Assembly: GCA_017514845.1 (NCBI GenBank) | Contig: JAFWIM010000229.1 | Coordinates: forward strand, 1-35,179 | Reading direction: 5' to 3' | Origin: Lachnospiraceae bacterium | GTDB lineage: Bacteria; Bacillota; Clostridia; Lachnospirales; Lachnospiraceae | DNA: 35,179 bases | Shown here: positions 9,378-28,759 of the stretch, piece after piece | Layout of the letters: each line of letters opens with the position of its first letter | How positions within the stretch are numbered: the first letter of the stretch is position 1 | Program-made: the position numbers and the translations under genes | The notes under the pieces: generated by a model | What the model was told of the DNA's origin: nothing | Databases searched by the model: none | The model's input: only the letters and a program-made list of their open reading frames with translations

Positions 9378-9381
9378 CTTC

Positions 9382-9410: not shown

Positions 9411-9444
9411 AATATTGTATTTTCCGACCGAAAGGAGTATTGAC

Positions 9445-9546: not shown

Positions 9547-9569
9547 GCATGATTGCGTTTTCACCTGAC

Positions 9570-9606
9570 ACCCGGAGGTCCGACAAGGTCCTCCGGGTCT
9601 TTCTTT
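9570..9606 (+). terminator. Terminator of the small membrane-peptide gene
   Basis: ACCCGGAGG (9570-9578) and CCTCCGGGT (9590-9598) form a perfect 9-bp stem with an 11-nt loop, followed by CTTTCTTT on the plus strand. On the minus strand the hairpin is followed by GTCAGG, with no U tract, so it should act mainly on plus-strand transcription. It starts 23 nt after the ORF stop. Confidence 0.85.
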
Positions 9607-9654
9607 GAGCCTGCACTTAGATGAACGCAGCGCGAGCGCGGCTTGGACATGCCG

Positions 9655-10689
9655 TCAGTCCATCTCGAACATGATCTTTGTGTAGAGCCCATTTCCCATA
9701 AGTGTCGCAAATGCCTCCTGGCTCTCTTCCAGCTTGTAAACATGAGTAATGAGATTCGTGGGATCGAGACTTCCGTCGGACATCATGGAGATCACACTCT
9801 TCCAGTCGTTCACTGTCGAAGAGTACGAAGAGTTCCACGTTCCTCTGATATTGAGCTCGCCCCGGAGAATCCTCCAGAAAACATCCTTTTTAATGTTGAC
9901 ATCCTCCACAGGATTGCCGACGATCACGATGTTGCCGCCTCTGGCCACGACCCGCATCGCGGTCAGGACCGCATCCGAGTTTCCCGCGCACTCGAGCACC
10001 ACGTCTGCCATTCCGCCCTCAGTGAATTCCCGTATAGCCTCCTCCGGATCCCATATGGACGAGTTGACCACATGGTCCGAATACTGGGACGCATATTTCA
10101 CCTTGTCCCTCGTGCGTCCGATGAGAATGACCTTGTAAGCCCCGAGGATGCGGGCGATCTTGGCAGCAAGTATAGCGATCGTCCCTGTTCCTACGATCGC
10201 GACGACATCGCCCTTTTTCATCTTGCCGCGCCGGAGCGCGTGCAGGGCGACCGCTGCCGGCTCGCACATCGCTGCCGCGCGATAATCAAGATCATCCGGG
10301 ACAAGATTGATGTTGAAGACCGGAACGCTTATGTATTCGGCAAATGCCCCGTCGCATCTCGAACCGTAATAGCTGTAGTGCTCACACTGGGCATAACGCT
10401 CAGACCTGCAAGGTGCGCACTGTCTGCACGGAAGGAGCGGATATACACCTGCCCTTCTCCCCAAAAGCTCCGGGTTTACGCCCTGCCCCAGCTCAACGAT
10501 CTCGCCTGAGAATTCGTGGCCGGGAACCGTCGGAAAATGATATGTCCCGTTCTTGAATATCCTGTCCTTATCGCTGCTGCAGATGCCGCAGTTCTTGATC
10601 TTCAGCAGGACCTCGCCTTTTCCCGGCTTCGGCGTCGGTATCTCCTTATACACAATTTTTCCAATATCCTCAAGCACAAGTGCCTTCAT
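9655..10689 (-). CDS. Zinc-dependent medium-chain alcohol dehydrogenase, galactitol-1-phosphate dehydrogenase-like
   Basis: The 344-residue MDR-family oxidoreductase acts on polyols or sugar phosphates with NAD(P). Catalytic-zinc residues are C37 (NCGICSSD) and H58-E59 (GHE). The structural zinc lobe has C88, C91, C94 and C102. The nucleotide-binding turn is GTGTIA (around 190). IFKNGTYHFP and the late ILRGELNIRGTW resemble GatD. The ATG at 10689 is chosen because GGAGG lies 6 nt upstream; the longer frame begins inside the previous gene. It is 11 nt downstream of an IspD/TarI-like cytidylyltransferase. In teichoic acid and capsule clusters such a pair makes CDP-ribitol or another CDP-alditol (TarJ/TarI logic), so a sugar-phosphate reductase role is inferred. 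The true substrate is unknown. Confidence 0.85.
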   Translation of the reverse strand: MKALVLEDIGKIVYKEIPTPKPGKGEVLLKIKNCGICSSDKDRIFKNGTYHFPTVPGHEFSGEIVELGQGVNPELLGRRAGVYPLLPCRQCAPCRSERYAQCEHYSYYGSRCDGAFAEYISVPVFNINLVPDDLDYRAAAMCEPAAVALHALRRGKMKKGDVVAIVGTGTIAILAAKIARILGAYKVILIGRTRDKVKYASQYSDHVVNSSIWDPEEAIREFTEGGMADVVLECAGNSDAVLTAMRVVARGGNIVIVGNPVEDVNIKKDVFWRILRGELNIRGTWNSSYSSTVNDWKSVISMMSDGSLDPTNLITHVYKLEESQEAFATLMGNGLYTKIMFEMD

Positions 10690-10700
10690 AAGCTCCTCCG

Positions 10701-11417
10701 TCAATCTAATTTTACTGTTTCCACGACCCCGCCGCATATCTTCGCAAAGCGCATCAGGTCCTCTTTCGTCGTTATCTTAAAATTGTCGCGGCTTCCCGGC
10801 GTGATCCGTATCTTCATCCCGTTTTCAAATGCGATCTGGGAACTCCCCCGGCATCCGGCGAGATACTCCGCGGACGCTCTCATGTGAGCCTCGTAATACT
10901 TCCCGAACAGATAGGATTCCGGGGTCTGGCCGGCTACGATCTGGTCTCTCGGCAGCTGACGGCCGATCGTCTTTCCATCGAACGAGAGATAGCAGGTGTT
11001 CGTGACCGGCAGCGACGGCATTACGCCGTCATAATCGTCAGAGACCGACGCACATTCCGAGATGATATTATCGGATGTGCACGGCCTCACCGCGTCATGC
11101 ACGAGCACAATGTCCGTGTCCGCGGCATTCTCTCGCATAGCGAGAAGTCCGTTTTTGACTGATTCCTGCCGTGAATTTCCCGGCTGCGCAAATCCCCTGA
11201 ACTTTGTGATTCCGCACTTCCGCATCCACTCACCTATAAAATCATGCCACTTTTCGTCAGCCACGATCCATATGGCGTCAATATCTCTGTGGGAATCGAA
11301 CCGCTCCAGCGTGTAAGCTATAATGGGCTTTCCGTTCACAGTCAGATACTGTTTGGGGACATTTCCTATTGTCATCCGGCTGCCCACGCCGCCGGAAACG
11401 CACAGAAGATGATTCAT
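10701..11417 (-). CDS. IspD/TarI-like cytidylyltransferase
   Basis: The 238-residue enzyme transfers CMP from CTP to an alditol phosphate (methylerythritol 4-phosphate for IspD, ribitol 5-phosphate for TarI). Motifs: SGGVGSRM (8-15) with PKQYL for CTP binding, HDAVRP (107-112), QTPE, and a C-terminal NFKITTKEDL. The sequence opens LLCVSGGVGSRM where the usual form is A-G-G-x-G-x-R-M. It begins 3 nt after YfhO stops, with a GGAAAGG site inside that gene, and is followed by a polyol/sugar-phosphate dehydrogenase. Context with LicD and glycosyltransferases favours a CDP-alditol for a cell-surface polymer over isoprenoid synthesis, although the sequence alone cannot exclude IspD. Confidence 0.87.
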   Translation of the reverse strand: MNHLLCVSGGVGSRMTIGNVPKQYLTVNGKPIIAYTLERFDSHRDIDAIWIVADEKWHDFIGEWMRKCGITKFRGFAQPGNSRQESVKNGLLAMRENAADTDIVLVHDAVRPCTSDNIISECASVSDDYDGVMPSLPVTNTCYLSFDGKTIGRQLPRDQIVAGQTPESYLFGKYYEAHMRASAEYLAGCRGSSQIAFENGMKIRITPGSRDNFKITTKEDLMRFAKICGGVVETVKLD

Positions 11418-11420
11418 ATT

Positions 11421-13805
11421 CTACCTTTCCGCCCTGCGGGCTCTCCGCATTAAGAGAATATAGACGGCAGCAAGGGCCGCGCCCGCAGCGCTGATGATCG
11501 CGCCGGACATGAGTCCGGGCACTGTGTATTCAAAGCGGATCCTGTTCGTGCCCCCATGGATCTTCACCGCCATAAATCCGTTAATGTCAACAATCGCTGT
11601 CTCCGCACCGTCCACATAAGCCTTCCATCCCGAATCGTTCGGTATGGAGAAAAACGCGTATTTGTCCGAATCCGCGTCGATCGAGACCTCATAGCTGTCC
11701 GTTGTCTGTTGGACATTGTACGCACACTCATCAAGGTGGTCTATGCTGATATCCGAAATATATTCCTTCAGTGCGGGTCCGTCAACGAACTGATCATAGG
11801 GCCTTAAATACTGCGAGACCTCTTCCTCCATATCATCCGGAACGATCAGAGTCTTCAGCATAAGTATCGCCCGGTCATCCTCGAAGGTCGACGCAAAATC
11901 AGACGCGGTCATGTACGTGTTGTAGGTAAAGCCCATCGGCGGCACCGTGCGGTCCTCATAGACATAGTAGGTCGTGTACTGACCGGTCACGACCTGCGAA
12001 GGCTCCTCGTCTTCCCTCGGCTTTGTCTCAATGGAGAAGCGCGCCGAGATGAGGTTCATCATGCCTTCAGGCGCTTCCGGGCTCTTGACATCCCGCTTCA
12101 GTCCGAGAGATTCGTAGAATCGAAAGATTGAGCCGGATACAGTGCTGCAGAAATTGGCGCTTGCCGGGTAGCCGTGGGACAGCGTTTCGATGTTGTCCCG
12201 GCTCGTGAAGCGGTATTCCGGTGTGGTGTACTCAATCTTTTCGGACGTCATAAGCTTGTCATATATATGCCGCGCGTCCTCCCGGTGAGCCAGCTGCAGA
12301 AGATATACATCCGATATGGTGACAGTCACCGAGATGACAAAGACCGCAGCGGCGAGCACAAGTTTCTGCTCTCTCTTCATGACCGTGAGAACGAGCCATG
12401 TCAAAAGAGTCCCGACCAACGCGATCACGCACCAGTAGGCGAACAGCCCCGGCCGATAAATCTTGCTGGGCTCCGAATCATTCCATTTCACCAGAGTGAG
12501 GAACAGAATGAAGAAAATCTGGATTGCGCCCCAGATGACAGCGCCTTTTGTGATCGCCCTGTCAGTGGGCGTTTTTCCCGACCATCTCTTTTTGTCCGAC
12601 TCCCATCGGTCGAGTACCATGACCGAAGCCAGCACCATGATATAGTCCGCCATATAATACCAACGGCAGTAGAGTCCGGCAAAGAGCGAGAACGATGCGT
12701 TGAAAATGGGGATCACCGCCATGATCAGGCAGAACAGCAGCATTCTCGTGATCCAGTGTCTCCGGTTCTGGGTGACGAACGCAATCACCAGGACAAGTCC
12801 GGTGACCGGGATCCACGCGTTGCACGATGAAAAATTATTCTTGATCACCGCGCTCTGGTGGGACATGACCTCTCCCGGAAGTATAAGTCCCTTCAGTATG
12901 TATAGATATCTCTCAGCCCCGAAGACCAGCGATGTAGACCCGGTATAATCCACCCCGACGCGGGGATTCTGTATGACAAAATAGAAAGCCGGCAGCAGTA
13001 ATACTGCCCCGAGCATACAGCCGAGGGCTCCCTCGATGAATATCTGCGGCAGCCGCTTTATATACTCGCGGAACCTCGGGATGAGGTAGCGGATCACATA
13101 GTAAGCGGCCATAAAAATGATTTCACCGATAAAGAAGAAATAATTGACCAGCGCATTTATGCACACGGCAAAAATGAACGGTCCCCTTTTCTTCTCAAGC
13201 ATCATATCGTCGAAGGTCAGAATGAGCAGCGGGAACAGCGCGACCACATCATGGAAATGGTAGAACAGCAGATCCTCGCCCATGAACCCGCAGAAGGCAT
13301 ACAGCATGGAGCCGATGACTGCCATCTGCTGGTCCCTGACATATTTCTTCATGCAGGCATAGGATGTCAGGCCGGCGACCGCGTACTTGAGGGCATAGAT
13401 CCATCCGACCACATACATGAAGTATCTGGACGGAAAGAGCAGTGAGAGCCAGAAGGACGGATTTCCCACGACATAGAACATCTGCCCGCCGATAAAGTTG
13501 GAACCCAGATCAAGGGACCAGTCCCAGATGATGTTTCCGGCCTTGACGGCATCATTTGCAGCCATTGCAAATGTAATCTGCTGGGAATTAAAATCCCCCG
13601 CAAGGGAGAAAAGTCCACCCTGCACTATGATCGTCCAGGCAAATGAAAGGATACCGGCCGCCAGATTGAAGAGAAAAGCCTGCACGTAATAATTTCCGAA
13701 GGCCATTCTTCCTCTTTTCTTCTTTTTCCCTGTTGATCCGGTGTTGCCGGTCTTATCCGCAGCCACAAAGAGGCTCCCCTTTCCTCTTAACATCTTTTCC
13801 ATCAT
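11421..13805 (-). CDS. YfhO-family polytopic membrane protein (GT-C-like)
   Basis: The 794-residue protein has a disordered, Lys-rich cytoplasmic N-terminus of about 40 residues (GKKKKRGR), at least a dozen membrane spans up to about residue 500, a long extracytoplasmic domain, and a last span before an RRARRAER tail. This architecture and length match YfhO proteins. The Bacillus subtilis member is implicated in glycosylation of lipoteichoic acid using lipid-linked sugar, so an extracellular decoration step on an envelope polymer is inferred. The early loop has GDFNSQQITFAM, where GT-C enzymes usually place an acidic residue. The ATG is 4 nt after the upstream stop, with a weak Shine-Dalgarno (GAGATGATGAT), which suggests translational coupling. 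Confidence 0.85.
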   Translation of the reverse strand: MMEKMLRGKGSLFVAADKTGNTGSTGKKKKRGRMAFGNYYVQAFLFNLAAGILSFAWTIIVQGGLFSLAGDFNSQQITFAMAANDAVKAGNIIWDWSLDLGSNFIGGQMFYVVGNPSFWLSLLFPSRYFMYVVGWIYALKYAVAGLTSYACMKKYVRDQQMAVIGSMLYAFCGFMGEDLLFYHFHDVVALFPLLILTFDDMMLEKKRGPFIFAVCINALVNYFFFIGEIIFMAAYYVIRYLIPRFREYIKRLPQIFIEGALGCMLGAVLLLPAFYFVIQNPRVGVDYTGSTSLVFGAERYLYILKGLILPGEVMSHQSAVIKNNFSSCNAWIPVTGLVLVIAFVTQNRRHWITRMLLFCLIMAVIPIFNASFSLFAGLYCRWYYMADYIMVLASVMVLDRWESDKKRWSGKTPTDRAITKGAVIWGAIQIFFILFLTLVKWNDSEPSKIYRPGLFAYWCVIALVGTLLTWLVLTVMKREQKLVLAAAVFVISVTVTISDVYLLQLAHREDARHIYDKLMTSEKIEYTTPEYRFTSRDNIETLSHGYPASANFCSTVSGSIFRFYESLGLKRDVKSPEAPEGMMNLISARFSIETKPREDEEPSQVVTGQYTTYYVYEDRTVPPMGFTYNTYMTASDFASTFEDDRAILMLKTLIVPDDMEEEVSQYLRPYDQFVDGPALKEYISDISIDHLDECAYNVQQTTDSYEVSIDADSDKYAFFSIPNDSGWKAYVDGAETAIVDINGFMAVKIHGGTNRIRFEYTVPGLMSGAIISAAGAALAAVYILLMRRARRAER

Positions 13806-13809
13806 ATCA

Positions 13810-15699
13810 TCATCTCATAAGCAGCTGCATTTTGTAGAGCAACCGCAGCATATTTCGGAGTACGGTCCTTATTACGGGGTCTTTCTCCTCCGAAATCGTC
13901 TTTTTCATCTCGTCAAAATCCAGATAGTCTTCAAATCTGAGTCTGTCAATATGTTCAAAATAAAACTCCGTGAGAGCGCCGTATGCCTTCTCCTCGATCT
14001 CTGTATAGAAATCCATGCGGCCTGTGTCCTCTTTCTCCACGTTGGAAGTCCCCGCGAAGTTCGTGAGGTAGCCGGGAAGTATGTCAGAGAGAGCTCTCTG
14101 CGGCAGCACACGCTTTGAGTCGCCGTCAATATAGAGCCTTCTCGGGACAGTCAGCGCAAAATCGAGCACGCGCGCGTCGAGAAGCGGGAAGAGGTACATG
14201 ACACCTGCGTCCGCGCCGGCCGAGGCCGCGAGCAGCGTACGCGACTCCAGCGTTCCCGACAGAAGATTCTTCTCCGGTGAGACACCGAAGTATTTCATTT
14301 TTCCCTTGTGGCTTTGCCGCATTTCTTCTGCAAATGCAGGCTGGACCACACTGAAAGTCAGCCCGTTCGCCTGTAATCCGTTCCAGGGCTTCTGCGATTC
14401 GTATAGATATCTGACCGTTCTCCGCATGAACCCGAGGTATTTTTTCGGAGAACCTCCCGCTGCGTGTCCGGCAGCCTTAAAGTAGGCTTTGTACTCTCCG
14501 GCCTGTGCCAGATGGAACGGACCGAACCGCATCGAAATGCCCTCATCTCCTCCCCAGCCGGAGAAGACCGCCCGCACTCCGGCATCAGCGAGGGCCTGCA
14601 TCGAATCCGCTATAATGCCGGTCTCATATTCGCAAATCTCCTCGCGGGCGCCGCGGGATAAGATTTTTTCACGGTCAGTTGCCTCCTGCGCGTTCCTGAA
14701 GATGCATGCATTTCCCTTCTCCTCGCAGAATCGGGTGATCACTTTCCTCTCATCGCGCAGTTTTCCGCCGTCCGCCTGCCTGATCTTATAATCCCACGGT
14801 GAGGGGGACCAGGTATAGACGACCGGTCTCACCACGCCTCTTTGATCCGCGATCTCATCTATGAGCGCTGTGACCATGCCGGAGTCAAGTCCCCCGGAGA
14901 ACTCGCAGCCGATTTCAGTGCCGAGCACTGCCTCATAGCGGATCAAGGCAGCGTCCCGAAGGAGCCTGGCCGCATCGTCATAGTACTCCTCGTCATAATC
15001 GCGCCTTTTTGCCCTTCGCTCACCCGGGATGTAGAAACGCTCGGTCTTGACCTCATCCGCGCGGATAAATCGGGTGACGCTTCCGTGGACGGCCTTTTTA
15101 ACATTTGCAAATGCAGTATCCGTCTCCGAGGCCATCGAGCCCAGAGTGAGGGCGTCATACACCATATTCTCATCGATCTCGGGCTCTATAAAGTCCAGGT
15201 GCAGCATCGGACGGTAATCAGTGGACACCGTGATCCGCCCCTCCGTCCGGACATAGTAGAGCGGCCGCACACCGATGTGGTCGCGCACAAGGCGAACCGA
15301 GCCGTCGCCGCGGCCAACGAGGACTGCGGCAAAATCACCGTTGACATGCAAAAGCCCCCTTGCGCCGAACTTTTCGTATATGAGGACAAGAAGCTCCTCA
15401 TCGCTGATCTCCTCATCTGCCGAGACCGCTTTCAGCATCTCGCTCCTGTTGTATATGATCGCGTCGCACACCGCAATAAAGCGCTTCGTCATGATGACCG
15501 GCTTTCCCGCAGGAACTCCCTGATGCATACCGGAGATACAGCTTCCGAGGATCAACTGCCATCCTGCCGCGCCGAGGATCTCATATCCGCAATCCGCCCT
15601 GCCGTAGACGCTGAGACCTTCTGTCATCAGCCCTGCCGCGCCTTCCGCATCCGCTATTCTGTTTTCTTTTTCACTGATGATAGCAAATATTCCGCTCAT
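13810..15699 (-). CDS. Asparagine-synthetase-like lasso peptide cyclase (C protein)
   Basis: The chosen start gives 629 residues beginning MSGIFAII: AGAGG lies 8 nt upstream, and the N-terminus aligns with the asparagine synthetase MCGIxG start. The catalytic Cys2 of the glutaminase domain is Ser here, so ammonia release from glutamine is not expected. The N-terminal fold is otherwise kept (YNRSE, GDFAAVLV, RDHIGVRPLYY). The ATP-pyrophosphatase domain has SGGLDS (268-273) and GWGGDE (381-386), as in enzymes that adenylate a carboxylate. Lasso cyclases such as McjC use this chemistry to close the Asp/Glu-to-N-terminus ring. Genes for B1, B2, kinase, nucleotidyltransferase and ABC exporter lie just upstream, supporting a lasso-type role. 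A beta-lactam-synthetase-like or other amide-forming role is the alternative. Confidence 0.82.
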   Translation of the reverse strand: MSGIFAIISEKENRIADAEGAAGLMTEGLSVYGRADCGYEILGAAGWQLILGSCISGMHQGVPAGKPVIMTKRFIAVCDAIIYNRSEMLKAVSADEEISDEELLVLIYEKFGARGLLHVNGDFAAVLVGRGDGSVRLVRDHIGVRPLYYVRTEGRITVSTDYRPMLHLDFIEPEIDENMVYDALTLGSMASETDTAFANVKKAVHGSVTRFIRADEVKTERFYIPGERRAKRRDYDEEYYDDAARLLRDAALIRYEAVLGTEIGCEFSGGLDSGMVTALIDEIADQRGVVRPVVYTWSPSPWDYKIRQADGGKLRDERKVITRFCEEKGNACIFRNAQEATDREKILSRGAREEICEYETGIIADSMQALADAGVRAVFSGWGGDEGISMRFGPFHLAQAGEYKAYFKAAGHAAGGSPKKYLGFMRRTVRYLYESQKPWNGLQANGLTFSVVQPAFAEEMRQSHKGKMKYFGVSPEKNLLSGTLESRTLLAASAGADAGVMYLFPLLDARVLDFALTVPRRLYIDGDSKRVLPQRALSDILPGYLTNFAGTSNVEKEDTGRMDFYTEIEEKAYGALTEFYFEHIDRLRFEDYLDFDEMKKTISEEKDPVIRTVLRNMLRLLYKMQLLMR

Positions 15700-15768
15700 A
15701 TATATGCCTCTTGCAGGTGTCATCCGGCTGCTGCGGATTCACGCCGCGCTCTCCGCCGACACTTATGA

Positions 15769-16605
15769 TCAGTAACTCTGAATGTCCCCCGCCGGCATGC
15801 CGGTCAAAAATCCGGACGTCGCCCTCACGAGATACGTGAGAGCTGTCTGCACGACCACACTGCCCGCGTAATAATACCATGGCAGATGATACGGGAAAAG
15901 GACCAGCCAAATAAGAAGCAGCCCTGTGAGAACGCTCAGGAAGTTGGCTGCCAGAAGTCTGCCTGCGAGCTCTCTCCCTGAATATGTCTCCGCATTATAG
16001 AGCTTCCACTGTCTGAAAATCAGCACCGTGAGCGCTGCCGTCGGGATGCTGGATACGATCCAGATCTGCATGGGAAACATTGCTGCCCGGAGAAACTTCG
16101 TCGGACCGAAAAATATGATATCCACGATCTGAAGCATGCCCCCGCCTGTCAGGATCACCGCCATAAAATCGTAGGTCCAGAGCGGACCGTAGAAACAGAT
16201 CATGCCAAGAAGCGCGCCGAGTGAATTGTGAAATACGTCGTCGAACTCTCCAAGGCCTTTGCCTGTCACGTACTGAGCCACCTCAACGAACACAAAAAGG
16301 AGCACACAGGCCGCAAAGATACGCCTTTTGTCTGTAATCTTTCTCTTCCAGGCTGCCGCTGCCGCGAGATATCCGATTGGCACCGTCAGCAGTATATTGA
16401 TGACCAGAAGCTGAAATCTGTAAACATCACCCCGAAGCGCGTGCCGTATCGTCCAGAAAGGTGTCAGATTGGCTCTCCGGTTATGGCTGCCCCGAAACAG
16501 CAGGGTCTGGGACAGAAAAAACAGCATGTAAACAGCGAGAAGGATGTAAAGGATCCTGTCATCTGTCAGCTTTCTTCCGTCCCTTGGTTTTTCTATCTGA
16601 TTCAT
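15769..16605 (-). CDS. VanZ-like family membrane protein
   Basis: The 278-residue protein has about seven membrane spans. VanZ-family landmarks: NLTPFWTIRHALRG, NILLTVPIGYLAAA and FVEVAQYVTGKGLGEFDDVFHNSLGALLG (cited as landmarks over roughly residues 95-135). The E..Q and DD..N pattern is typical. The start ATG (16605) overlaps the end of the nucleotidyltransferase gene by 47 nt, with an AGGA site further inside it. It sits between the nucleotidyltransferase and the cyclase-like gene, an unusual place for a VanZ protein. It might protect the producer or help assemble the polymer; neither can be shown from sequence. Confidence 0.83.
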   Translation of the reverse strand: MNQIEKPRDGRKLTDDRILYILLAVYMLFFLSQTLLFRGSHNRRANLTPFWTIRHALRGDVYRFQLLVINILLTVPIGYLAAAAAWKRKITDKRRIFAACVLLFVFVEVAQYVTGKGLGEFDDVFHNSLGALLGMICFYGPLWTYDFMAVILTGGGMLQIVDIIFFGPTKFLRAAMFPMQIWIVSSIPTAALTVLIFRQWKLYNAETYSGRELAGRLLAANFLSVLTGLLLIWLVLFPYHLPWYYYAGSVVVQTALTYLVRATSGFLTGMPAGDIQSY

Positions 16606-17767
16606 CTTTTTTAATTATTTTCCTGTACAGCTTGTAAGGTCCGCGCACAATGTAGTAAAGAAAGAAGAAGCGATCGCTGAAATGGAACTTTTCGAAATCT
16701 TTCTCGGAAGGATCGATCCTTCTCTTCTTTTCCTTTTTCGTGACCAGGCCGCGGCGGTCCATCTCCCCGTCCAGATACAGCCTGTAGGCCTTAAATGTAT
16801 CGTCCTTGACTCCGTTCGATCCGGTGAGCACCTTCAGCATCTCCTTTGTGAGCTGGGTGCCGAAGACCGTGCGGGTCTCATTTTCACCGGCGACCAGCGC
16901 AGCGAGGCTCTCCGAGGCCTCAAGCGCAAATGTCATCTTTCTCATGGCAGCGATCTTTTTCACTCTGTCACGGTCGATGAGCGGATGGTGAAACAGCGCG
17001 TCAAAATCGACGAGCCACTTCATCCACATGTAGCCGTGGTGCACGCCGTGATAGGCAAGATAAACGAGCAGTTCCTCCGCGCTGAAGGAGGGAAGTGTCT
17101 TGCCGTAGAATTCAAGCTCCGACTGCGCGACGTCAATTGTAAGCAGCTCGGCGTTCTTGTAGTCGGCGACTCTCCAGTGAAGCTCCAGGCGAACACCGTT
17201 CTCGGACTCAAAATCATAGTCGTGGAACTTCGACTCATAGACTTCCGTCTGTTTCTGAGTTTCAACGTAGTCCTTGAGGCAGGTGTATCCGTGGGCAAGG
17301 AGAAGCTCTTTGGCACAAGAAAGCTGCTCGTGGGGTACAAGCAGGTCAATATCTGTCGCGACCCGGTATGTCGCATCCCCGTAAAGGATCTTGGAGAGGA
17401 TGACTCCCTTCATCGGGACAGCGCGGATGCCTGCCCCCTCCATGAGGCGGACAAGGCGGACCAGCTCACCGGACTGTTTCATGGCCGCGATCTTATTCCT
17501 GTTCGCATTCTCATAGAGCCCGCGGATCTCCTCTGTGATTCCGCTCGCCTCCCCGCTCCTTGTTGCCTGACCGGCAGTCGGAAAGAATTTTTTAAGATTA
17601 GTCGCGAACAGGCCGTAGACCTGATGAACGTAAGCGATCCTCACGCACTCCGAAAGGTCTAGTCCCTCGCCGTAGAGCCTTTCCGCCCTTTTAAGGTAGG
17701 CTTCAGGCATCGGCATCGCCGAGCACAGGAAGACAAATCTCATCTCCCTCGTTATACCGTACTTCAT
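16559..17767 (-). CDS. Nucleotidyltransferase-fold protein of lasso clusters (NTP_transf_5-like)
   Basis: The 402-residue protein has a core AVPMKGVILSKILYGD (from about 117) followed by RVATDIDLLV (about 135-144), the G-x-D-x-D-type metal-binding signature of this nucleotidyltransferase family. Homologues sit beside lasso peptide genes in Bacillota; in the pseudomycoidin pathway the corresponding protein acts after the kinase to modify the phosphorylated C-terminus. Here it follows B2 with a 4-bp ATGA overlap (start 17767, B2 stop 17764), which is why this start is chosen over an in-frame one 75 nt upstream. It could instead transfer a sugar or nucleotide to another acceptor in this glycopolymer cluster. 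The C-terminus is Lys/Arg-rich. Confidence 0.8.
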   Translation of the reverse strand: MKYGITREMRFVFLCSAMPMPEAYLKRAERLYGEGLDLSECVRIAYVHQVYGLFATNLKKFFPTAGQATRSGEASGITEEIRGLYENANRNKIAAMKQSGELVRLVRLMEGAGIRAVPMKGVILSKILYGDATYRVATDIDLLVPHEQLSCAKELLLAHGYTCLKDYVETQKQTEVYESKFHDYDFESENGVRLELHWRVADYKNAELLTIDVAQSELEFYGKTLPSFSAEELLVYLAYHGVHHGYMWMKWLVDFDALFHHPLIDRDRVKKIAAMRKMTFALEASESLAALVAGENETRTVFGTQLTKEMLKVLTGSNGVKDDTFKAYRLYLDGEMDRRGLVTKKEKKRRIDPSEKDFEKFHFSDRFFFLYYIVRGPYKLYRKIIKKDESDRKTKGRKKADR

Positions 17768-18192
17768 GCAAATACAGCAGTCACCGTGAACTGCTCTCTC
17801 CCTTCTGCTCCGGTGACATAGATATCCCCGCAGCGCGTCCATGCATGGGCCCGCATCGCGCCGTCTTTGGTCTTCGCGACTCCCATATACACAGTCATTT
17901 TTTCATGCAAAAGAAGGCGTTTGGCCACAAACGCCTCCACAAGACATTCATTCTTAAAATGCAGCCTCGGGCACACGATTTTTATTGCCCTGGATACTTC
18001 GAAGATCCGCTCTTTATTATTTCCTGAATAAGGCTCAAAAGGGGCTGACTCACAGCGCTTTCCGAGCCGGCAACAGATGTCGCGGAAAGCTTTTTTACTG
18101 ATCAGCCATTTATAATAAAGTGCCAGTAAAAAGACTCTTACGACCAGGATCTTCAGGCTCAGCGGATACTTAAGGAATTTCAGTATCTTCAT
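17764..18192 (-). CDS. Lasso peptide biosynthesis B2 protein (transglutaminase-like leader peptidase)
   Basis: The 142-residue stand-alone protein belongs to the papain/transglutaminase-like family that removes the leader from lasso precursors after the B1 partner binds it. The catalytic Cys is C83 in CPRLHFKNECLVEAF, the His is H116 in MRAHAWTRCGD, and D123 is a candidate for the third residue. The length and the spacing of Cys to AHAW fit split B2 proteins. It starts by a 4-bp overlap with the PqqD-like gene (stop 18189, start 18192) and ends by a 4-bp overlap with the nucleotidyltransferase, so translation is coupled across all three. The N-terminus is basic with a moderately hydrophobic helix. 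Confidence 0.87.
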   Translation of the reverse strand: MKILKFLKYPLSLKILVVRVFLLALYYKWLISKKAFRDICCRLGKRCESAPFEPYSGNNKERIFEVSRAIKIVCPRLHFKNECLVEAFVAKRLLLHEKMTVYMGVAKTKDGAMRAHAWTRCGDIYVTGAEGREQFTVTAVFA

Positions 18193-18464
18193 TTCTCTTC
18201 CGTAAAAGCAAGCCCCGCATCTATAAGCTGAGTTAGAAAGCTCTTCGTCTCCTTCTCACACTCGGCCCTTTCGACATCATATATTTCCATCATCTCATCA
18301 ACGATCCTGTCAACGGTATGATGATTCTCTAAGTTTTTCCAGATATCCCCGCCGGTCCTGCCAAGATTATAATACTTGCCTGTCTCAATATCCATCATGA
18401 CAGTCTCACCGTCCATGTCAGCTGTAATCAGCCCCTCTTTTCTGTAAAATACTGTATCACTCAT
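18189..18464 (-). CDS. PqqD-like RiPP recognition protein (lasso B1)
   Basis: The 91-residue PqqD-fold protein is of the type that binds the leader of a ribosomally made peptide and presents it to the B2 peptidase. Typical features: a paired-strand N-terminus ending MDIETGKYYNLGRTGGDIW, then a helical half with TVDRIVDEMMEIYDV and a C-terminal helix. The start ATG overlaps the kinase stop by 8 bp and the stop overlaps B2 by 4 bp. In known pathways this family is essential for substrate choice, so it is the best lead to the missing precursor's leader sequence. Confidence 0.88.
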   Translation of the reverse strand: MSDTVFYRKEGLITADMDGETVMMDIETGKYYNLGRTGGDIWKNLENHHTVDRIVDEMMEIYDVERAECEKETKSFLTQLIDAGLAFTEEK

Positions 18465-19377
18465 AGATAAATTCCTCCGTTTTGTCCCATAATTCCGCTT
18501 CTGTCGTTCCCTCGTAGCGGAAAAGATGTGCCTCGGATAAGTGCGAGGCGCACTTCGCGCATTTCTGAAAATGAGACTGCCTGTCCTCTGCCGTCACGAG
18601 AAGGTAGGTCCTGTAGGTGTGTATCTGCAGAAGGACTGCCTTCTCAAGGCCGGTCACCTCTTTAAGGAGCGGCCGATCCCCCTGTTCTCCCTCTTTCGGG
18701 ATGAGCTGAAGTACACCGACGAGCTCCACGGTCTCATCGAGGAAGCTGTCGCCGACATCCATTGCGAACTTGGTCCTGCTCTCCTCCTGAAATACCGGGT
18801 GATCTTTCATATCCCAGCTTCCGCCGCGGTCGATCGCGTCCTCCCAGAGCTTCTGCTGCGGGAAGGAAGGCTCAGCCAGGACTTTACCGTTCTCAAGCCG
18901 GATCGGGGTGACATCGTCCGTCACAAGCCTGTAGCCTCTTCTCAGGGCTTCCGCAGACAGGGATGACTTCCCGGCTCCTGAGACTCCTGTTATGAGAATC
19001 CCCTTCCCGTCTCTTGCCACGCAGCTGCCATGCATGGGGACCGCGCCCCGCTGGTGCAGGATCGCGCCGAGAGCAAGACCTGTGACATAGGCCTGCATCT
19101 CCCCCTCCCTTGCAGGGTCCGTGAACAGCCGCTCGACTCTGATCTCATTTCCGTTCGCGGCATACAGCCTTACGACATTTTCAATTTCCGTCCACATTTC
19201 CTTCCTGCCGAGTATGCAGTCCGGCCATGTCTTGACGGGCTCCCTGACAAGTTCTGACGGGGCCGGCGCGCTCACGATCCTCACGTCAGGATCGCCCGTG
19301 TCCGTTGCCTTCCTCATCTGGGCCAGCGGAAAATCGCTGCTTATTCTGAGGCCGAAGCCTCTCATCATGTATGTCAT
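18457..19377 (-). CDS. HPr kinase-like protein of lasso clusters (K)
   Basis: This 306-residue protein has an N-terminal domain of about 100 residues and a C-terminal P-loop kinase domain: Walker A GVSGAGKSS (131-139), then LVTDDVTPI (about 152-160), which matches the acidic pair of HPr kinase/phosphorylase. In paeninodin-type clusters the equivalent kinase phosphorylates the C-terminal Ser of the lasso precursor. It is much too far from sugar-transport genes to be a real HPr kinase and lacks the usual HprK N-terminal domain. Its ATG (19377) directly abuts the TGA of the ABC exporter gene (19378), giving TGAATG. Confidence 0.83.
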   Translation of the reverse strand: MTYMMRGFGLRISSDFPLAQMRKATDTGDPDVRIVSAPAPSELVREPVKTWPDCILGRKEMWTEIENVVRLYAANGNEIRVERLFTDPAREGEMQAYVTGLALGAILHQRGAVPMHGSCVARDGKGILITGVSGAGKSSLSAEALRRGYRLVTDDVTPIRLENGKVLAEPSFPQQKLWEDAIDRGGSWDMKDHPVFQEESRTKFAMDVGDSFLDETVELVGVLQLIPKEGEQGDRPLLKEVTGLEKAVLLQIHTYRTYLLVTAEDRQSHFQKCAKCASHLSEAHLFRYEGTTEAELWDKTEEFIYE

Positions 19378-21153
19378 TCAACCATCCTTCATTCTTACAA
19401 GATAACTGTCCGGATTCGCGAGCAGCTCCTTTGCCGTTCCCGCTTCGCAAAGATGTCCATCCGCAATGACGAGTATATCATCTGCCGTCTGTATTGTCGA
19501 TACGCGGTGGGCTATAAGAATCACGGTCACATGATCTCCGAGACGCGCCAATACGTCCGCGATCAGTCTTTCATTTTCAAAATCAAGAGCGCTCGTCGCC
19601 TCATCGAGAATAAGAAGCTCCGGATCGCCCGCAAGGGCTCTGGCCAGCACGATCCGCTGGACTTCGCCGCCGGAGAACATGGCCCCGTCATCTCCCATTC
19701 TGAGGTCGAGCGGCATGATTTCACCGTCCGCCTTGCGCACAAGGAAATCCCATGCCCCGCTCTTCCTGAGGGCCGATATGATCTTGTCGTCGCTGATGCC
19801 CGGGTGGAATCTCGCTATGTTCTCCTTAACGCTCGCGTTCAATATCATCGGATTCTGCGGCACATAGCATATTCTGTCCTTGGTGACGGCGATTTTAACT
19901 TCGCCGGATCCCGGACTCAGGAAACCGAGTATCAGGTCGACCGCAGTGGACTTTCCTGCGCCCGACGGTCCTGTGAGGGCCGTTATCGTATTCTTTTTGA
20001 CATCGAAGGTCACATCCTCAAGCGCGTTCTCCGAGGCGCCTGCGTAGGAGAAACTCACATGGGAGAACGAAATGGCTGTGCCCTCCGGCAGATCGGCACC
20101 GAACTCACCGTCCGTACTGACCTCCTGTGTCGACCGGTTCCCTTCCGTTCGTTTTCGAACATCCTCCATGACGCGGTAAGCAGGAAGAGTTTCCCTGATT
20201 CCCATGATGTACTCCTGGGTCGACGGTAGCAGCGGCCATATTCTCATGAACACATAGAGAACGATGACAAGGTGGGACGTCTCGATCTCAAGGAAGTATA
20301 CCGCTCCGAAGAAGATCACACTGATCAGAACGGCCTCTCCGATCGTCGACAGCATGCGGGGTCTCGCCACATTGTCCGCAGATCGGACCATCGTGTGTTC
20401 AAGTTCTCTGGACGCGCTGTCAAAGCGCCTCGCCTCCTCCTCCTCGATGCCGTAGCTCCGAATCTCCTTAAAGCCCGCGAGCTGTGTCTTCATCTCGGCT
20501 GTGAAACGGTCGTACTGGGCGGTCAGAGTATTTCCGATCTCCTTTGACCTCTTCGTGAAAGGTCTGAAGAAGATAAAGAAGATGCCTCCCGCGCAGATGA
20601 CGAACAGCGACAGCGGTACCGACATCGCAAAAGCCACGATGAGTTCCACGAAGGCCGTCGCCATATTGGTCAACATACAGAGAAAATAATTGACAGTGGT
20701 CGTGAGCCTTGGAATCTCATTTACCATGGCGTCCATATGCCTTGCCTGACTGCCTGTGATATAGCGCTCCCACGGAGTATTCATGAGGCAGCTGTAATAC
20801 TCTTCCCGCATGTCTGCCGTAAAATTGGACGCCAGCTGCATACACTGGACCCGCATTTTCCGATGCGCGGCAGCCTGTACCAGCATTATGACAAAAAAGA
20901 ATCCCAGAACGAAGATCAGCCTTAAGAGCAGCGGCTGCGCATTGAGGGCGGCAGCTGCCGCGCTGATGCCGAACGGCAGAGTCGCGTCCGAGCTCGCCCC
21001 TCCGATATTGAGGATGCCCAGAATAGGAATCAGGGTCAGTATTGTCACGCCCTGCAGCAGCGATGAGACGATCATGAGAACGAGGGTCCATACAAAAAGG
21101 CCGGCGTCTTTTTTTAGAACATCCCGGAGCACTGCCCCCAGCTCATGCACCAT
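19378..21153 (-). CDS. ABC exporter, fused membrane and ATPase domains (lasso D-like)
   Basis: The 591-residue half-transporter has six spans in the first ~330 residues, then an ATPase domain: Walker A GPSGAGKST, signature FSGGEVQR, Walker B LLILDEATSALD and H-loop IAHRVST. There is no N-terminal C39 peptidase domain, so leader cleavage must be done by another protein, as in lasso pathways (B2). Start chosen: ATG 21153, which has GAGGAG 10 nt upstream; a GTG at 21171 lies within that ribosome site. It is the first gene of the coupled D-K-B1-B2-N block and lies 47 nt after licD. A lipid-linked glycan flippase is the alternative role. Confidence 0.88.
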   Translation of the reverse strand: MVHELGAVLRDVLKKDAGLFVWTLVLMIVSSLLQGVTILTLIPILGILNIGGASSDATLPFGISAAAAALNAQPLLLRLIFVLGFFFVIMLVQAAAHRKMRVQCMQLASNFTADMREEYYSCLMNTPWERYITGSQARHMDAMVNEIPRLTTTVNYFLCMLTNMATAFVELIVAFAMSVPLSLFVICAGGIFFIFFRPFTKRSKEIGNTLTAQYDRFTAEMKTQLAGFKEIRSYGIEEEEARRFDSASRELEHTMVRSADNVARPRMLSTIGEAVLISVIFFGAVYFLEIETSHLVIVLYVFMRIWPLLPSTQEYIMGIRETLPAYRVMEDVRKRTEGNRSTQEVSTDGEFGADLPEGTAISFSHVSFSYAGASENALEDVTFDVKKNTITALTGPSGAGKSTAVDLILGFLSPGSGEVKIAVTKDRICYVPQNPMILNASVKENIARFHPGISDDKIISALRKSGAWDFLVRKADGEIMPLDLRMGDDGAMFSGGEVQRIVLARALAGDPELLILDEATSALDFENERLIADVLARLGDHVTVILIAHRVSTIQTADDILVIADGHLCEAGTAKELLANPDSYLVRMKDG

Positions 21154-21200: not shown

Positions 21201-22082
21201 TCATGTCTCATCATCAGCAGTCTCCTCAAAGGATACAAATTCTATCTTTCGGATATTGTGCTTATCCCGGTTCCCCTCCGCCGGCGGCTTCATATAATCG
21301 CCGTAGAACCTGGAAAGGAATTCATCATAAAGTCTCGGGCCGGGCAGCATGACATCCTCAAACCTGTACAGGCGGACATGCTCACCTCCCCAGACATTTT
21401 TGGGAACGATCTCGCGGTACGCGTACGCCCCGAATACATTTGCGCCCGTGCTGCTGCCGTCCCATCCATAGCGGTGCAGCTTTTTATCGATCTCCCAGAG
21501 GATCTCCTTCGTGTCGGCTCCCCTGCCGAGATTCACCCTCTTCGCGGCTTCGATAATGAGCCGCTGATAGAGCGGTCTGCCCGGTCTGTTAAGATTCACC
21601 AGATAATCAAAGCACGACAGATGGTATCTGAGCCTCGTCCACATGAGAGATGTGTAGTGCAGGTAACGGAAAAACGGAATATTCGGATTTCCGTCAAGCG
21701 GGAAAATATCGATCCACGCGGACTCGACGATTTCCCGGCCTCCGGAAGCATTGTATACCCGTACGCGGTTGTCCACGATGCGGCTGAAATATCTGTTGTA
21801 ATCTTTTTTGATCTTGAAATTCAGATACTCAAAGTGCTCCGGAAGACCTTCGCCTCCCGCAAGGAGGTCGAACAGTCTGTCATAATCTTCTCTGGGCATG
21901 CCGATGTCCACGTCATCGTCCCAGGGAATGAAGCCCCTGTGCCTTACCGCGCCGAGCATAGTGCCCCCGATCATGTAATAACGCAGGTGCTCCCTCTCAC
22001 AGATATCGATAAAAACGCGGATGATCTCAAGCTCTGCCAGCTGCAGTTTTCTTAAATTGGAATGAACTTCTTCGTTATACAT
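21201..22082 (-). CDS. LicD-family phosphotransferase
   Basis: LicD proteins attach phosphocholine or other phospho-alcohols/alditols from a CDP-activated donor to teichoic acid or capsule sugars. The sequence has MIGGTMLGAVRHRGFIPWDD (from about 37) and DDDVDIGMPREDY, the metal-binding nucleotidyltransferase-fold signature of the family. ATG 22082 is preferred over GTG 22085: GAGAGGG is 6 nt upstream and the ATG shares a base with the upstream TGA stop. A donor could be made by the IspD-like and GatD-like genes at 9655-11417. The nature of the transferred group is inferred only. Confidence 0.9.
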   Translation of the reverse strand: MYNEEVHSNLRKLQLAELEIIRVFIDICEREHLRYYMIGGTMLGAVRHRGFIPWDDDVDIGMPREDYDRLFDLLAGGEGLPEHFEYLNFKIKKDYNRYFSRIVDNRVRVYNASGGREIVESAWIDIFPLDGNPNIPFFRYLHYTSLMWTRLRYHLSCFDYLVNLNRPGRPLYQRLIIEAAKRVNLGRGADTKEILWEIDKKLHRYGWDGSSTGANVFGAYAYREIVPKNVWGGEHVRLYRFEDVMLPGPRLYDEFLSRFYGDYMKPPAEGNRDKHNIRKIEFVSFEETADDET

Positions 22083-24564: not shown

Positions 24565-24585
24565 ATCAAAGCACCTCCGTCCGAT

Positions 24586-24720
24586 TTGTATCTCACCGGT
24601 TTATATCTCACCGATCTGTATCTCACCGATCTGTGTCTTACCGATCTGGATCTTACCGATCATTGTCTTGCCGATCTGTGTCTTACCGGTCTGTATCTTA
24701 CCGATCTGTATCAAGCCGAC
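24586..24720. repeat. Nine tandem 15-bp repeats between two glycosyltransferase genes
   Basis: Nine consecutive 15-bp units (plus-strand consensus CTGTATCTTACCGAT) fill 24586-24720 without indels. Units vary mostly in positions 1-5 and 9-10. On the transcribed strand each reads ATCGGTAAGATACAG. Because 15 is a multiple of 3 the array stays open: in minus-strand frame with the preceding gene it would give IGKIQ-type pentads after two stop codons, and on the plus strand it reads TDLYL-type pentads that mimic pentapeptide repeats. No ribosome site supports either. It separates the GT4 stop (24736) from the next ribosome-binding site by about 140 nt in an otherwise tightly packed cluster. Confidence 0.9.
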
Positions 24721-26014: not shown

Positions 26015-28759
26015 TTATGCAGCGCCTACCCAGTCCCAGGGATCTTCAATCTCAATAGTCGGTGCGGTTGTTGTTCCCGTGGACTCAGCCGTCTGTCCGG
26101 ACTCAACTGTCTCGCCGGACTCAGCTGTTCCAACGGAAGCCGCAGCGGAATCTGTCGCGCTCTCCAAAGCACCTGACTCCGTGCCGGATGAGGTATCGAC
26201 TGCCGCCACAGCACCGGAATCCGTTACTGTCGGCAGGAAGCTTGTCGCATTTACCTTATCGGTGTAAGCGGAACTTCCGTCACCGTAGAGAATATCCTCG
26301 ATGATCGGGAGTGTTGTCGCAAAATCCGGTACCAGAATCTCATGATCGATCGTGAACAGACCGTCAAACGGAATTCTCGCGCTCTGAAGCTTATAGTCTG
26401 TAAGGCTGATGATCGTCGGAACAGAGCCGAATATTCTGGACTCCGGAATATTGTGTGTGACGTACGGAAGGATTTTCCGTATGATCGACGCTTTCTCCTT
26501 TGTGCTTGCGCTGCCGATCTTGCCGATGATCTGGGCAAGAATGACTCTCTGGCGCTCTGTCCTTCCGAAATCGGAATTTCCGACGCTTCGTATCCTTGCA
26601 TAGCCCACGGCCTGATAGCCGCTCATGTGGACATCGCCGCTCGTGAGCAGGAAGTGCTGCTGCGGGTCTTCGCCGTTGAGCCGTGCCATCTCGCTGATAT
26701 AGCCGTTGGCAGCCTGCATCTCGGCATCGGAGATCCGAAGATCGACGCCTCCGAGGAGGTCGATGATCTGTATCATTCCGTTAAAGTCGACCCACGCATA
26801 ATTGTCGATCGGGATCTTATAATTGTTCTCAATCGTGGTCACGAGAAGCGGGCACCCTCCATACGCGCAGGCAGCGTTGAGCTTTTTAATTCCGTGGCCG
26901 GGGATCTCAGCATAGAGATCGCGCATGAAAGACATCATTGTGATCGTCTTCTTTGTCCGGTTGAACGAGAGCAGGATATTGCAGTCGGCATTGCCGTACC
27001 AGCTGGAATCCCTGCGGTCAACTCCTACGAGAAGAAGATTGTAGACATCTTTTCCACCGACCATGTCGACATCGGCTGCCTCGATCTGCGCCGTGACTGT
27101 CTCTGTCAGCGCGCTCTCGTCCTCGGCTGTGAGCCCTGTATCTTCGACTGTAGCGGCCAGCGCGAGGTTATCAGTGTTCTCAGCGATCTGCGTGTCGGCA
27201 ATAAAGTTAGCCCTGTTGTAATATGTGTGCATGACCACGAATCCGGCGATGAAGAGCACTGCGAGGATCGCGGCTATCGTGCCGAAGATCATAAAACCGA
27301 CATGCTTTCTGGGCTTATCACCGCCCAGGTCATCGTCTTCATCTTCGTCATCTATATCCTCATCGTCCTCGTCATAGTCCAAAGACTCGGCGCGGTTGTG
27401 ATCTCTGACGAAGCCGGCAGAGTTGTCCTCCGTGTGGCTGACAGCCGATGAGGCTGTGTCGGATACATCCCTGAAGCTGGGCGTGTATGCCTCCTTCTTG
27501 GAAGGTCTTACTTTCTCCGGCTCCTCCGGGACTGTCGTCACCTCCCTGGCCACGGCATCCGCCACGGGCTCCGGGTAGACCTCCGCTTTCCTGCTCTCCG
27601 CTTCAGCCCTGGCTGACATCGCGCTCTTTTTCTGAGCTTCCTTGATATCCTCCTCGAGCTTGTCGGAAACATCCTGCCCGATCTCGGATATCTCCTCGGT
27701 GCCTCCTCTGGCGATCGCTGCCGCCTCGGCGACATTTCGGGCTACGAATTCAAGATCTTCTTTCCTTCGGTTGGAGACGACCCTGTCCTCTCCCTCCTCA
27801 TCGAGCGTCCTCTTGACATCCTCGACGGATGTGGCCTCACATGCCTCCTGCACTGCATCGATGCGCTTCATGCGGTCCTCGTTGTTGTGCTGAAGAATCC
27901 GAAGGAGCATAAGCTGATAGGTCTCATCGTACCAGGCTTCCAGCTCCTCTTTCGACATCGCTGCCACATGATCTACTTTATCATCTCCATCCATATTGTT
28001 ATTGCGAATGTTGAAGTTGTAGAGCATGAACTCGATGTTGCTGAAGAGCCTCACATTACCCGGACTCCTGTTGTCCGTATAACTCTCGATCGTATCCCCC
28101 ATCGCGTTCAGAATGCTCTTCTTCCGCTCAAGGTTCCCGGATACCGAGTAACTGTTGTACTCGATGATCGCGTCGATTGCGGGATCCTGCGATGTCTCGG
28201 CGACAGCGTCCATTGCGACGTCCTTGGTCACCAGATAGATGACTTCCTTATCGGAAATGTACTTGACATCGTATTTCAGCCTTGCCAGCAGTTCTCTGAT
28301 CCTTGACAAAAGGACCGTATAATTCCTGAGGTCAAAATCATATCCGCGGGTCTCATCCGCATTAAAGTTTCTTCGGCACAGCTCAGCAATATTCAGTGTG
28401 TACTGCAGATATGTCAGGATCTCGTTCTTTGTCGGATCCGGTTTTGCCAGAATACCGTCAATATTAAGACCCTGCCTCATTGCGTCTGTGTCCGAGCAGC
28501 CTTCCTTCCCCTTCCAGGAATAAAAATACTTCTTGTCTACAAAATTCTCTATTGAATATTCCTTGAAGCCGTAGGACAGGATATGGCTCTGGAAAATCAT
28601 TTCGATCTGTATCATCGCGTCATGATAGTCGAAATATTCGTCTTTTTTTCTGCCGGTGTGCTTACCGCCAGCCCTTCCGGGCTGTTTTGTGCCGGCTGTC
28701 GGATCCGGACTTGTCATATCCGGACTGACATTGTCGTTGATCTGTGGATCATTAGCCAT
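26015..28759 (-). CDS. LytR-CpsA-Psr (LCP) family protein with a large novel cytoplasmic N-terminus
   Basis: LCP enzymes transfer undecaprenyl-linked polymers (teichoic acid, capsule) to peptidoglycan outside the membrane. The LCP domain spans roughly 571-760: LLLVGVDRRDSSW (575-587), SFMRDLYAEIPG (610-621), and RIRSVGNSDFGRTERQR (722-738). A single span (about 487-509) precedes it. Unusually, residues 1-486 are cytoplasmic: a folded-looking region (about 40-300), a charged helical stretch, then an acidic run rich in Asp/Glu (about 461-478). The C-terminus (about 845-900) is Ser/Thr/Ala/Gly/Glu-rich. At 914 residues it is two to three times the usual LCP length. It is monocistronic and adjacent to the glycopolymer cluster, so it is a good candidate to attach that polymer. 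Confidence 0.88.
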   Translation of the reverse strand: MANDPQINDNVSPDMTSPDPTAGTKQPGRAGGKHTGRKKDEYFDYHDAMIQIEMIFQSHILSYGFKEYSIENFVDKKYFYSWKGKEGCSDTDAMRQGLNIDGILAKPDPTKNEILTYLQYTLNIAELCRRNFNADETRGYDFDLRNYTVLLSRIRELLARLKYDVKYISDKEVIYLVTKDVAMDAVAETSQDPAIDAIIEYNSYSVSGNLERKKSILNAMGDTIESYTDNRSPGNVRLFSNIEFMLYNFNIRNNNMDGDDKVDHVAAMSKEELEAWYDETYQLMLLRILQHNNEDRMKRIDAVQEACEATSVEDVKRTLDEEGEDRVVSNRRKEDLEFVARNVAEAAAIARGGTEEISEIGQDVSDKLEEDIKEAQKKSAMSARAEAESRKAEVYPEPVADAVAREVTTVPEEPEKVRPSKKEAYTPSFRDVSDTASSAVSHTEDNSAGFVRDHNRAESLDYDEDDEDIDDEDEDDDLGGDKPRKHVGFMIFGTIAAILAVLFIAGFVVMHTYYNRANFIADTQIAENTDNLALAATVEDTGLTAEDESALTETVTAQIEAADVDMVGGKDVYNLLLVGVDRRDSSWYGNADCNILLSFNRTKKTITMMSFMRDLYAEIPGHGIKKLNAACAYGGCPLLVTTIENNYKIPIDNYAWVDFNGMIQIIDLLGGVDLRISDAEMQAANGYISEMARLNGEDPQQHFLLTSGDVHMSGYQAVGYARIRSVGNSDFGRTERQRVILAQIIGKIGSASTKEKASIIRKILPYVTHNIPESRIFGSVPTIISLTDYKLQSARIPFDGLFTIDHEILVPDFATTLPIIEDILYGDGSSAYTDKVNATSFLPTVTDSGAVAAVDTSSGTESGALESATDSAAASVGTAESGETVESGQTAESTGTTTAPTIEIEDPWDWVGAA

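Follow-up and report, generated by a model that had tools for sequence, protein, structure and literature searches.

A lasso peptide pathway apparently split between a wall-glycopolymer locus and unlinked precursor genes in a Lachnospiraceae genus

Results

Maturation genes in the window

The stretch of DNA analyzed here (the window) is the 35,179-nucleotide contig JAFWIM010000229.1 of the Lachnospiraceae bacterium assembly GCA_017514845.1, which holds at 13810-21153, among wall-glycopolymer-like genes, a maturation gene set of the paeninodin/pseudomycoidin lasso peptide type. The pathway genes, all on the minus strand, are designated by the letters D, K, B1, B2, N and C. The source genome (3.18 Mb in 259 contigs, 83% complete, 4.9% contamination) is called G000 and the window is its contig C138; other G-numbers stand for the genomes compared, C-numbers following them for contigs, and L-numbers for fetched loci. 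Comparisons covered a genus set of 42 genomes, 117 relatives searched by profile, and a family set of 397 Lachnospiraceae-family genomes from 334 genera.

D (19378..21153) is an ATP-binding cassette (ABC) exporter of the B-family/MsbA-like kind (PF00664/PF00005); K (18457..19377) is HPr-kinase-like, with a partial PF07475 match and a His-Lys-Asp-Asp motif, and is predicted to phosphorylate the C-terminal Ser of the precursor. B1 (18189..18464) is a PqqD-type recognition element (RRE) of ribosomally synthesized and post-translationally modified peptides (RiPPs), of the W-x2-P type, with 103 bits against NF033536 lasso_PqqD_Bac (cut-off 80), and B2 (17764..18192) is a transglutaminase-like leader peptidase with 66.5 bits against NF033537 lasso_biosyn_B2 (cut-off 33). 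N (16559..17767, its start taken from the ATGA overlap with B2) is nucleotidyltransferase-like (NTP_transf_5, PF14907, 142.7 bits) and of PsmN type by cluster position; C (13810..15699) is a predicted asparagine-synthetase-like macrolactam cyclase (PF13537 and PF00733) with SGGLDS and GWGGDE motifs. Genes, strand and order agree with a preliminary description made from the letters of this DNA; its gene list, though, was incomplete, having overlooked a VanZ-like membrane protein encoded between N and C (15769..16605, minus strand, PF04892).

Across 13810-21153 there is a single gap of 69 nt (15700-15768), the remaining genes abutting or overlapping, and the flanking gaps measure 4 and 47 nt. 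None of the gap open reading frames (ORFs) of at least 20 codons in the window was precursor-like, the best match of a leader profile over its six frames had E = 0.11, and a leader motif scan likewise returned no precursor. A precursor concealed in the gaps or in alternative frames of the window was thus rejected, and the earlier view of gaps shorter than about 70 nt and empty of a precursor is borne out; the renewed look for a precursor ORF inside the cluster found none.

Gene order and chromosomal place, from the aspartyl-tRNA synthetase (AspRS) side to the YfhO-like gene, were the same in G025, G022, G020 and G001, with 78-97% protein identity between G025 and the window from the LytR-CpsA-Psr (LCP) gene to YfhO. 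Profile searches of these four genomes found no precursor within their machinery clusters either, and since the order is kept there, the lack of a precursor does not stem from misassembly of the window contig. Both C and B2 are retained in all five genomes with a fully read cluster, while the VanZ-like gene is present in G025, G003, G022 and G020, with no match in G001.

A tandem precursor pair on another contig

The first pointer to a precursor was one weak match of the NCBIfam PadeA model in the source genome, at C200:29727-29783; this was sub-threshold (E 0.09), and the model was set aside for genome search although it aimed at the right place. A motif scan of the fetched stretches then exposed two tandem ORFs on C200, with a GGAGG site ahead of each. 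In G018 it also turned up two ORFs of similar type, downstream of a C gene. The peptide A precursor (39 codons; G000:C200:29670-29789, stop included, minus strand) comprises MEKWEAPVVNELNVQETA and GGKSDMPIECYCGCPCKGGQS on the two sides of the inferred cut, and the peptide B precursor (35 codons, TTG start; G000:C200:29429-29536, stop included, minus strand) likewise MEKWEIPTIMEINVEETA and GGKYEDVMEDYCAHAQS. The preliminary description had considered a precursor encoded elsewhere and matured in trans, an option that this pair supports at the level of sequence; the genome-wide search it proposed did yield precursor candidates, but with a W-x2-P leader and not the Y-x2-P leader that it expected.

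All 11 complete precursors of the genus have a W-x2-P leader, Thr-Ala-Gly, a Glu ten residues past the Thr and a final Ser; in peptides A and B the Thr stands at -2, the Glu at core position 9 and a Ser at the C terminus. The first four precursors were found with a motif demanding an acid at 7-9, the remainder by profile. A twelfth ORF, short and located on C142 of G018, carries the Glu without the final Ser. Cores of the genus begin with Gly-Gly (one with Gly-Ala), and each of the 11 contains one or more tail Cys. A motif scan over 914 kb of loci gave 19 matches against 4 in the order-reversed sequence, so that a lone match was distrusted unless position or conservation backed it.

Peptide A (L052 7674-7790) has four tail Cys in CxCxCxC spacing behind a Cys-free ring segment, an arrangement kept in four species and, to our knowledge, unusual among lasso peptides; this tail is possibly metal-binding or disulfide-bonded.

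In G000, G025, G022 and G020 an EamA-like gene (a name assigned from sequence) immediately precedes the pair, and the upstream neighbours are the same; downstream of the pair there is a 241-aa membrane protein in G000 and G025, and different genes in G022 and G020. Minimum separation between machinery and precursors, taking the contigs as abutting, amounts to ~134 kb for G020, ~42 kb for G025 and ~37 kb for G000, while the ~6 kb of G022 is uninformative because both loci lie near contig ends. As both loci occur in each of G025, G022 and G020, contamination of the source assembly (4.9%) is not the explanation.

Synonymous differences exceeded nonsynonymous ones (pS > pN) in 8 of 8 pairwise comparisons, which are non-independent and involve few changes. 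A TTGACT-17-TATACT box upstream of the pair is kept in the alignment of all four species; it carries weight only because of this conservation, given that the sigma-70 scan counts lay within chance (5 against 2.3 +/- 1.7 expected in G000; 3 against 2.4 +/- 1.5 in G025) and the scan alone was rejected as promoter evidence. A 10-pair hairpin follows peptide B in G000; the terminator scan assigned the hairpin there to the expected strand, and that of G025 to the opposite strand, and was likewise rejected as evidence. The pair apparently has its own promoter and terminator, and its persistent unlinking suggests that peptide dose is controlled apart from the enzymes.

Co-occurrence of precursors and machinery

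A first precursor profile, built from the two G000 ORFs and two G018 ORFs and run over the 117 relatives, matched strongly in G000, G025, G022, G020 and G018, the best match elsewhere having E 0.025; the out-of-sample pairs of G025, G022 and G020 scored between 7e-21 and 4e-14. Using a later 11-row profile, 6 of the 42 genus genomes had matches at E <= 0.1, five of them strong (best E <= 1.4e-17) and one weak (G024, 0.065); a 12-row leader profile matched in 9/42 at E <= 0.5, the same five strongly (<= 2.8e-14) and four weakly (0.10-0.41). C was found at E <= 1e-30 in seven of the 117 genomes, all of this genus, and the five precursor genomes all fall within these seven; the remaining 35 genus genomes gave no precursor match below E 0.05. 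Under random placement, with relatedness ignored, this overlap has a probability of 2.5e-5, which becomes 1e-3 when the two genomes of the first profile are left out.

On contig C176 of G018 (L050) C is followed by two precursors separated by a 415-aa ORF, an arrangement that may represent an intermediate or a secondary state; this short contig and C326 (L049) hold C genes without matches to B1, B2, K or N. A further G018 precursor, on C264 (core GANKMSFSE...), probably belongs to the same locus as the pair described above, because ORFs near it resemble the ones that follow the pair in G020, and because ~5.5 kb from it there is a homologue of the 241-aa protein. The contig with the glycopolymer cluster of G018 stops after D. 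On C269 (L156) a 502-aa flippase-like ORF (2407-3915, minus strand; Wzx-like, by eye) lies between LicD and D, and the D ORF of this genome is longer (729 aa), extra sequence interrupting the match.

Relatives in the family and the cyclase tree

B2 occurs in 12 of the 397 family genomes, source genome included, and precursor-like matches at E <= 0.001 in six, five of which are B2 carriers; the chance of such an overlap is 5.8e-8, or 1.6e-6 without the source genome. In the sixth genome, G442, the precursor lies next to C and K. Among 12 loci (the 11 other B2 carriers and G442), a precursor-like ORF stands near C or K in eight, namely G181, G442, G200, G464, G132 (three ORFs), G212, G151 and G288, the last candidate chosen by eye from the gap listing; no such ORF was seen near C or K in the G430, G256, G420 and G130 loci. 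Several of these loci are rich in glycosyltransferase-/capsule-type ORFs, as judged from ORF starts. Leader profile A5 was made from sequences of the window-C clade and G464, each trimmed ten residues past the Thr, leaving out the cis candidates of G132 (three), G212, G151 and G288. In the latter the nearest acid lies at T+8 to T+11, and at T+10 only in G288 (Asp); the fixed Glu is thus true of the window-C clade and not of the whole family.

Two further loci were recorded. A weak leader match (E 8e-5) on C29 of G181, near 76032 (L127/L142), lies on a contig other than that of the lasso genes of this genome and is possibly another trans precursor. On C49 of G430 (L128) a B1 that is 53% identical to the window B1 stands beside B2 and N, with no C or precursor recognized in the 20 kb read.

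In the cyclase tree (31 rows, midpoint root), from which the partial G003 C and the G130 C (426 aa, under the 450-aa limit) were left out, the seven genus rows form one group (100/100), and a further 100/100 branch unites 11 rows: these seven, G181, G200 and G442 from three other Lachnospiraceae genera, and Metabacillus L016. The neighbours of the genus group are G181, G200 and G442, followed by Metabacillus L016, and all four are near a local precursor; for this reason the local arrangement is probably the older one and the split derived. Phylogenies placing B1, B2 and C outside all lasso-associated clades had been named earlier as evidence against a lasso pathway; C falls with lasso-associated cyclases, and B1 and B2 were placed by profile scores only.

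Protein features and neighbouring genes

C starts with Met-Ser (Met-Ala in G001), Ser2 replacing the glutaminase Cys, and hence lacks this Cys, as do most of the precursor-adjacent cyclases compared. The Cys and His of B2 are present in 40 of 40 aligned rows, and K has His-Lys-Asp-Asp in 36 of 39 aligned rows, five genus rows included. Paeninodin kinases are described with the same motif and with the C-terminal Ser as target (PMC9266682); given the motif and the final Ser of 11/11 precursors, the predicted target of K is that Ser, the site PadeK modifies (PMC9266682).

The best solved relative of B1 was 9x90, a lasso PqqD-family chaperone (E 1.3e-22), whereas 9x8z, a PqqD protein taken to be LppB, reached only 2.8e-6. 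From its residue numbers we infer that 9x90 is PbaB1; in an ungapped alignment to it, 12 of the 17 leader-contact residues named for PbaB1 in PMC13381572 are identical in B1, among them the Gly that, according to the same source, helps discriminate against Tyr-type leaders. The 17 include D68 and E70. The 60 best of 274 solved relatives of D are generic ABC exporters, and the solved relatives of D, C and K were discarded as functional evidence for being generic; none were found for B2. D is the sole exporter recognized in the window's cluster and, judging by its sequence, may carry a peptide, a lipid-linked glycan or both. No signal peptidase was found among the window proteins scanned, and the pattern of the linear polyphosphorylated peptide (LPP) family (SipW-like peptidase, Y-x2-P precursors, no cyclase; PMC13381572) does not apply.

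The minus-strand run is headed by the LCP gene (26015..28759, PF03816), followed by a glycosyltransferase, a glycosyltransferase-like gene scoring under its Pfam cut-off, a membrane protein that lacks a Pfam match and is called Wzy-like only as a guess, and a LicD-family phosphotransferase (21201..22082, minus strand; PF04991, 125.9 bits), which adjoins D in G025, G022, G020 and G001. After D, K, B1, B2, N, the VanZ-like gene and C, the run ends with a YfhO-like membrane protein directly downstream of C (11421..13805, minus strand; PF09586; same place in the same four genomes), an IspD-like cytidylyltransferase and an alcohol dehydrogenase. The two glycosyltransferase-like genes are separated by a gap that is taken up, at 24581-24712, by a 15-bp tandem repeat (8.8 copies); in G025 the corresponding gap is only ~44 nt.

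Elsewhere in the source genome, the C140 locus (L051, G000:C140:36000-52886) carries at 8507-16885, on the minus strand, genes for a VWA-domain protein, a 78-aa peptide whose Y-x2-P motif is close to the N terminus, an HprK-like protein, PqqD, NTP_transf_5, a lipoprotein-like protein and an Rce1/CAAX-type protease. The locus resembles linear polyphosphorylated peptide clusters known from Bacilli, but its peptidase is different.

Discussion

We interpret these data as a split lasso pathway of the paeninodin/pseudomycoidin type, with the machinery in a wall-glycopolymer locus and the precursors in trans, and put the probability of this reading at about 0.82. It builds on direct observations of gene identity, of precursor anatomy, of co-occurrence and synteny, and of where C branches, while the catalytic steps, the site of leader cleavage, threaded topology and export are transferred from characterized relatives. 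By this analogy B1 would bind the W-x2-P leader, K would phosphorylate the C-terminal Ser, B2 would cleave after Thr-Ala and C would link Gly1 to Glu9; N may add a sugar to the phosphoserine, and D may export the product.

Several points weigh against this interpretation. Peptide A reaches 16.2 bits against NF033524 (PadeA, cut-off 27 bits) and peptide B has no match; the cyclase tree is rooted by midpoint only; and the co-occurrence within the genus is not phylogenetically independent. The best model of C is the lasso cyclase NF033535, with 124 bits against a cut-off of 525, a failure that says little because a PadeA-type control cyclase, L020 (Bacillota; nearby precursor with 58.7 bits in the PadeA family), also falls short with 332; the cut-off was accordingly dropped as a membership test. 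G001 (89% complete) and G003 (64%, its machinery partial and on a 4.5 kb contig) have C and no precursor by profile searches, and G018 (86%) carries precursors along with two C genes, yet no B1 or N was found in it, B2 and K not having been searched for; these absences are weak since all three genomes are fragmented and 64-89% complete.

It is improbable, in our view, that the same precursors and enzymes give an unthreaded product, either a linear phosphopeptide or a branched ring. A linear phosphorylated peptide family does share the RRE, the HprK-like kinase, the NTP transferase and the MsbA-like transporter (PMC13381572), C is divergent by its NF033535 score, and the Thr-to-Glu spacing permits a ring of nine (Thr at -2) or eight (Thr at -3); against this, the five fully read clusters retain C and B2 with SGGLDS, GWGGDE and the Cys/His pair, and the distance from Thr to Glu is constant in the 11 complete genus precursors. 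A machinery acting mainly on a non-peptide glycopolymer, for instance by amidating a uronic acid, would suit its fixed place in the glycopolymer cluster of five genomes and the match of C to the TIGR03108 amidotransferase of a polysaccharide-linked system (far under cut-off, 71.9 of 816.9 bits). This surface-polymer option of the preliminary description now looks very unlikely for the main substrate, as the families of B1 and B2 bind and cut leaders, respectively, and both proteins exceed the lasso cut-offs, C branches with precursor-associated cyclases, and fitting precursors occur in five of the seven genomes with C.

There is an equally slim chance that the C200 peptides are matured by another system, such as the C140 locus, which would leave the window's substrate still unseen. 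That locus has a PqqD (30 bits), an HprK-like P-loop protein (no Pfam match), NTP_transf_5 and a CAAX-type protease, but the 16.9 kb read there gave no match to the window B2 or C at E <= 1e-4, and its small neighbour is of the Y-x2-P and not the W-x2-P kind; moreover, weak PqqD matches occur in G005, G011 and G037 without strong W-x2-P precursor matches, and the window B1 resembles a W-type RRE.

Returning to the split lasso pathway, we consider it doubtful, though conceivable, that its peptides are made for attachment to the wall glycopolymer, K phosphorylating the Ser, N and/or LicD joining it by a phosphodiester to a sugar or alditol of the polymer that the surrounding genes make, and LCP anchoring the decorated polymer, an idea drawn only from the gene neighbourhood and the phosphorylation and glycosylation chemistry of relatives. 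If true, the cell would display knotted, Cys-bearing peptides on its wall.

The paeninodin core has Ala1 and Asp9, and the pseudomycoidin precursor is local. Unlike paeninodin, the pathway described here has its precursors outside the cluster, with Gly-Gly (one Gly-Ala) and Glu9 cores, Cys in the tails and scores below the PadeA cut-off; unlike pseudomycoidin, its precursors are unlinked and its machinery stands within a glycopolymer cluster. Separate B1 and B2, a C cyclase, a K predicted to act on the C-terminal Ser and a Trp-type leader are shared with paeninodin from Paenibacillus dendritiformis (PMC9266682, PMC13381572). The combination of K with a PsmN-type nucleotidyltransferase is as in pseudomycoidin from Bacillus pseudomycoides, where hexoses carried by the phosphorylated Ser have been associated with the nucleotidyltransferase-like PsmN (PMC9266682).

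Rumen Lachnospiraceae lasso clusters also have HPr kinase, PqqD, nucleotidyltransferase and glycosyltransferases adjacent (Sabino et al. 2020, PMC7533575). In that work, as described there, clusters were completed by seeking precursors in the surrounding genomic regions, and those without one were labelled incomplete; a distant precursor would escape such a search. Lasso mining customarily seeks precursors beside the enzymes; here a leader profile together with co-occurrence found the likely substrate, and other "incomplete" clusters are open to the same test. Precursors of prochlorosin-type lanthipeptides are encoded at a distance from the maturation enzyme, which acts on them in trans; the chemistry and enzymes are unrelated, and there are many precursors where we see one fixed pair. 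One source describes a tailoring deiminase whose gene lies outside a lasso cluster (PMC8498205), and the open-access literature searched yielded no account of a lasso pathway whose precursors lie apart from the enzymes. We describe a known pathway type in a new genetic arrangement; the substrate assignment is well supported by sequence and the product is predicted.

A parallel in gene context comes from the paeninodin-like clusters that Popov et al. 2026 (PMC13381572) describe within capsular polysaccharide loci of Bacilli, which encode a precursor; the role of paeninodins is called unknown in that source. As in those clusters, the machinery lies amid surface-polysaccharide genes, the leaders are of the W-x2-P type and B1 is nearest to the 9x90 RRE, whereas here the precursor is in trans and the neighbours are wall-glycopolymer-like (LCP, LicD, YfhO, cytidylyltransferase/dehydrogenase). 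The fixed place of the machinery in wall-glycopolymer genes offers a testable case for why paeninodin-type clusters occupy surface-polysaccharide loci.

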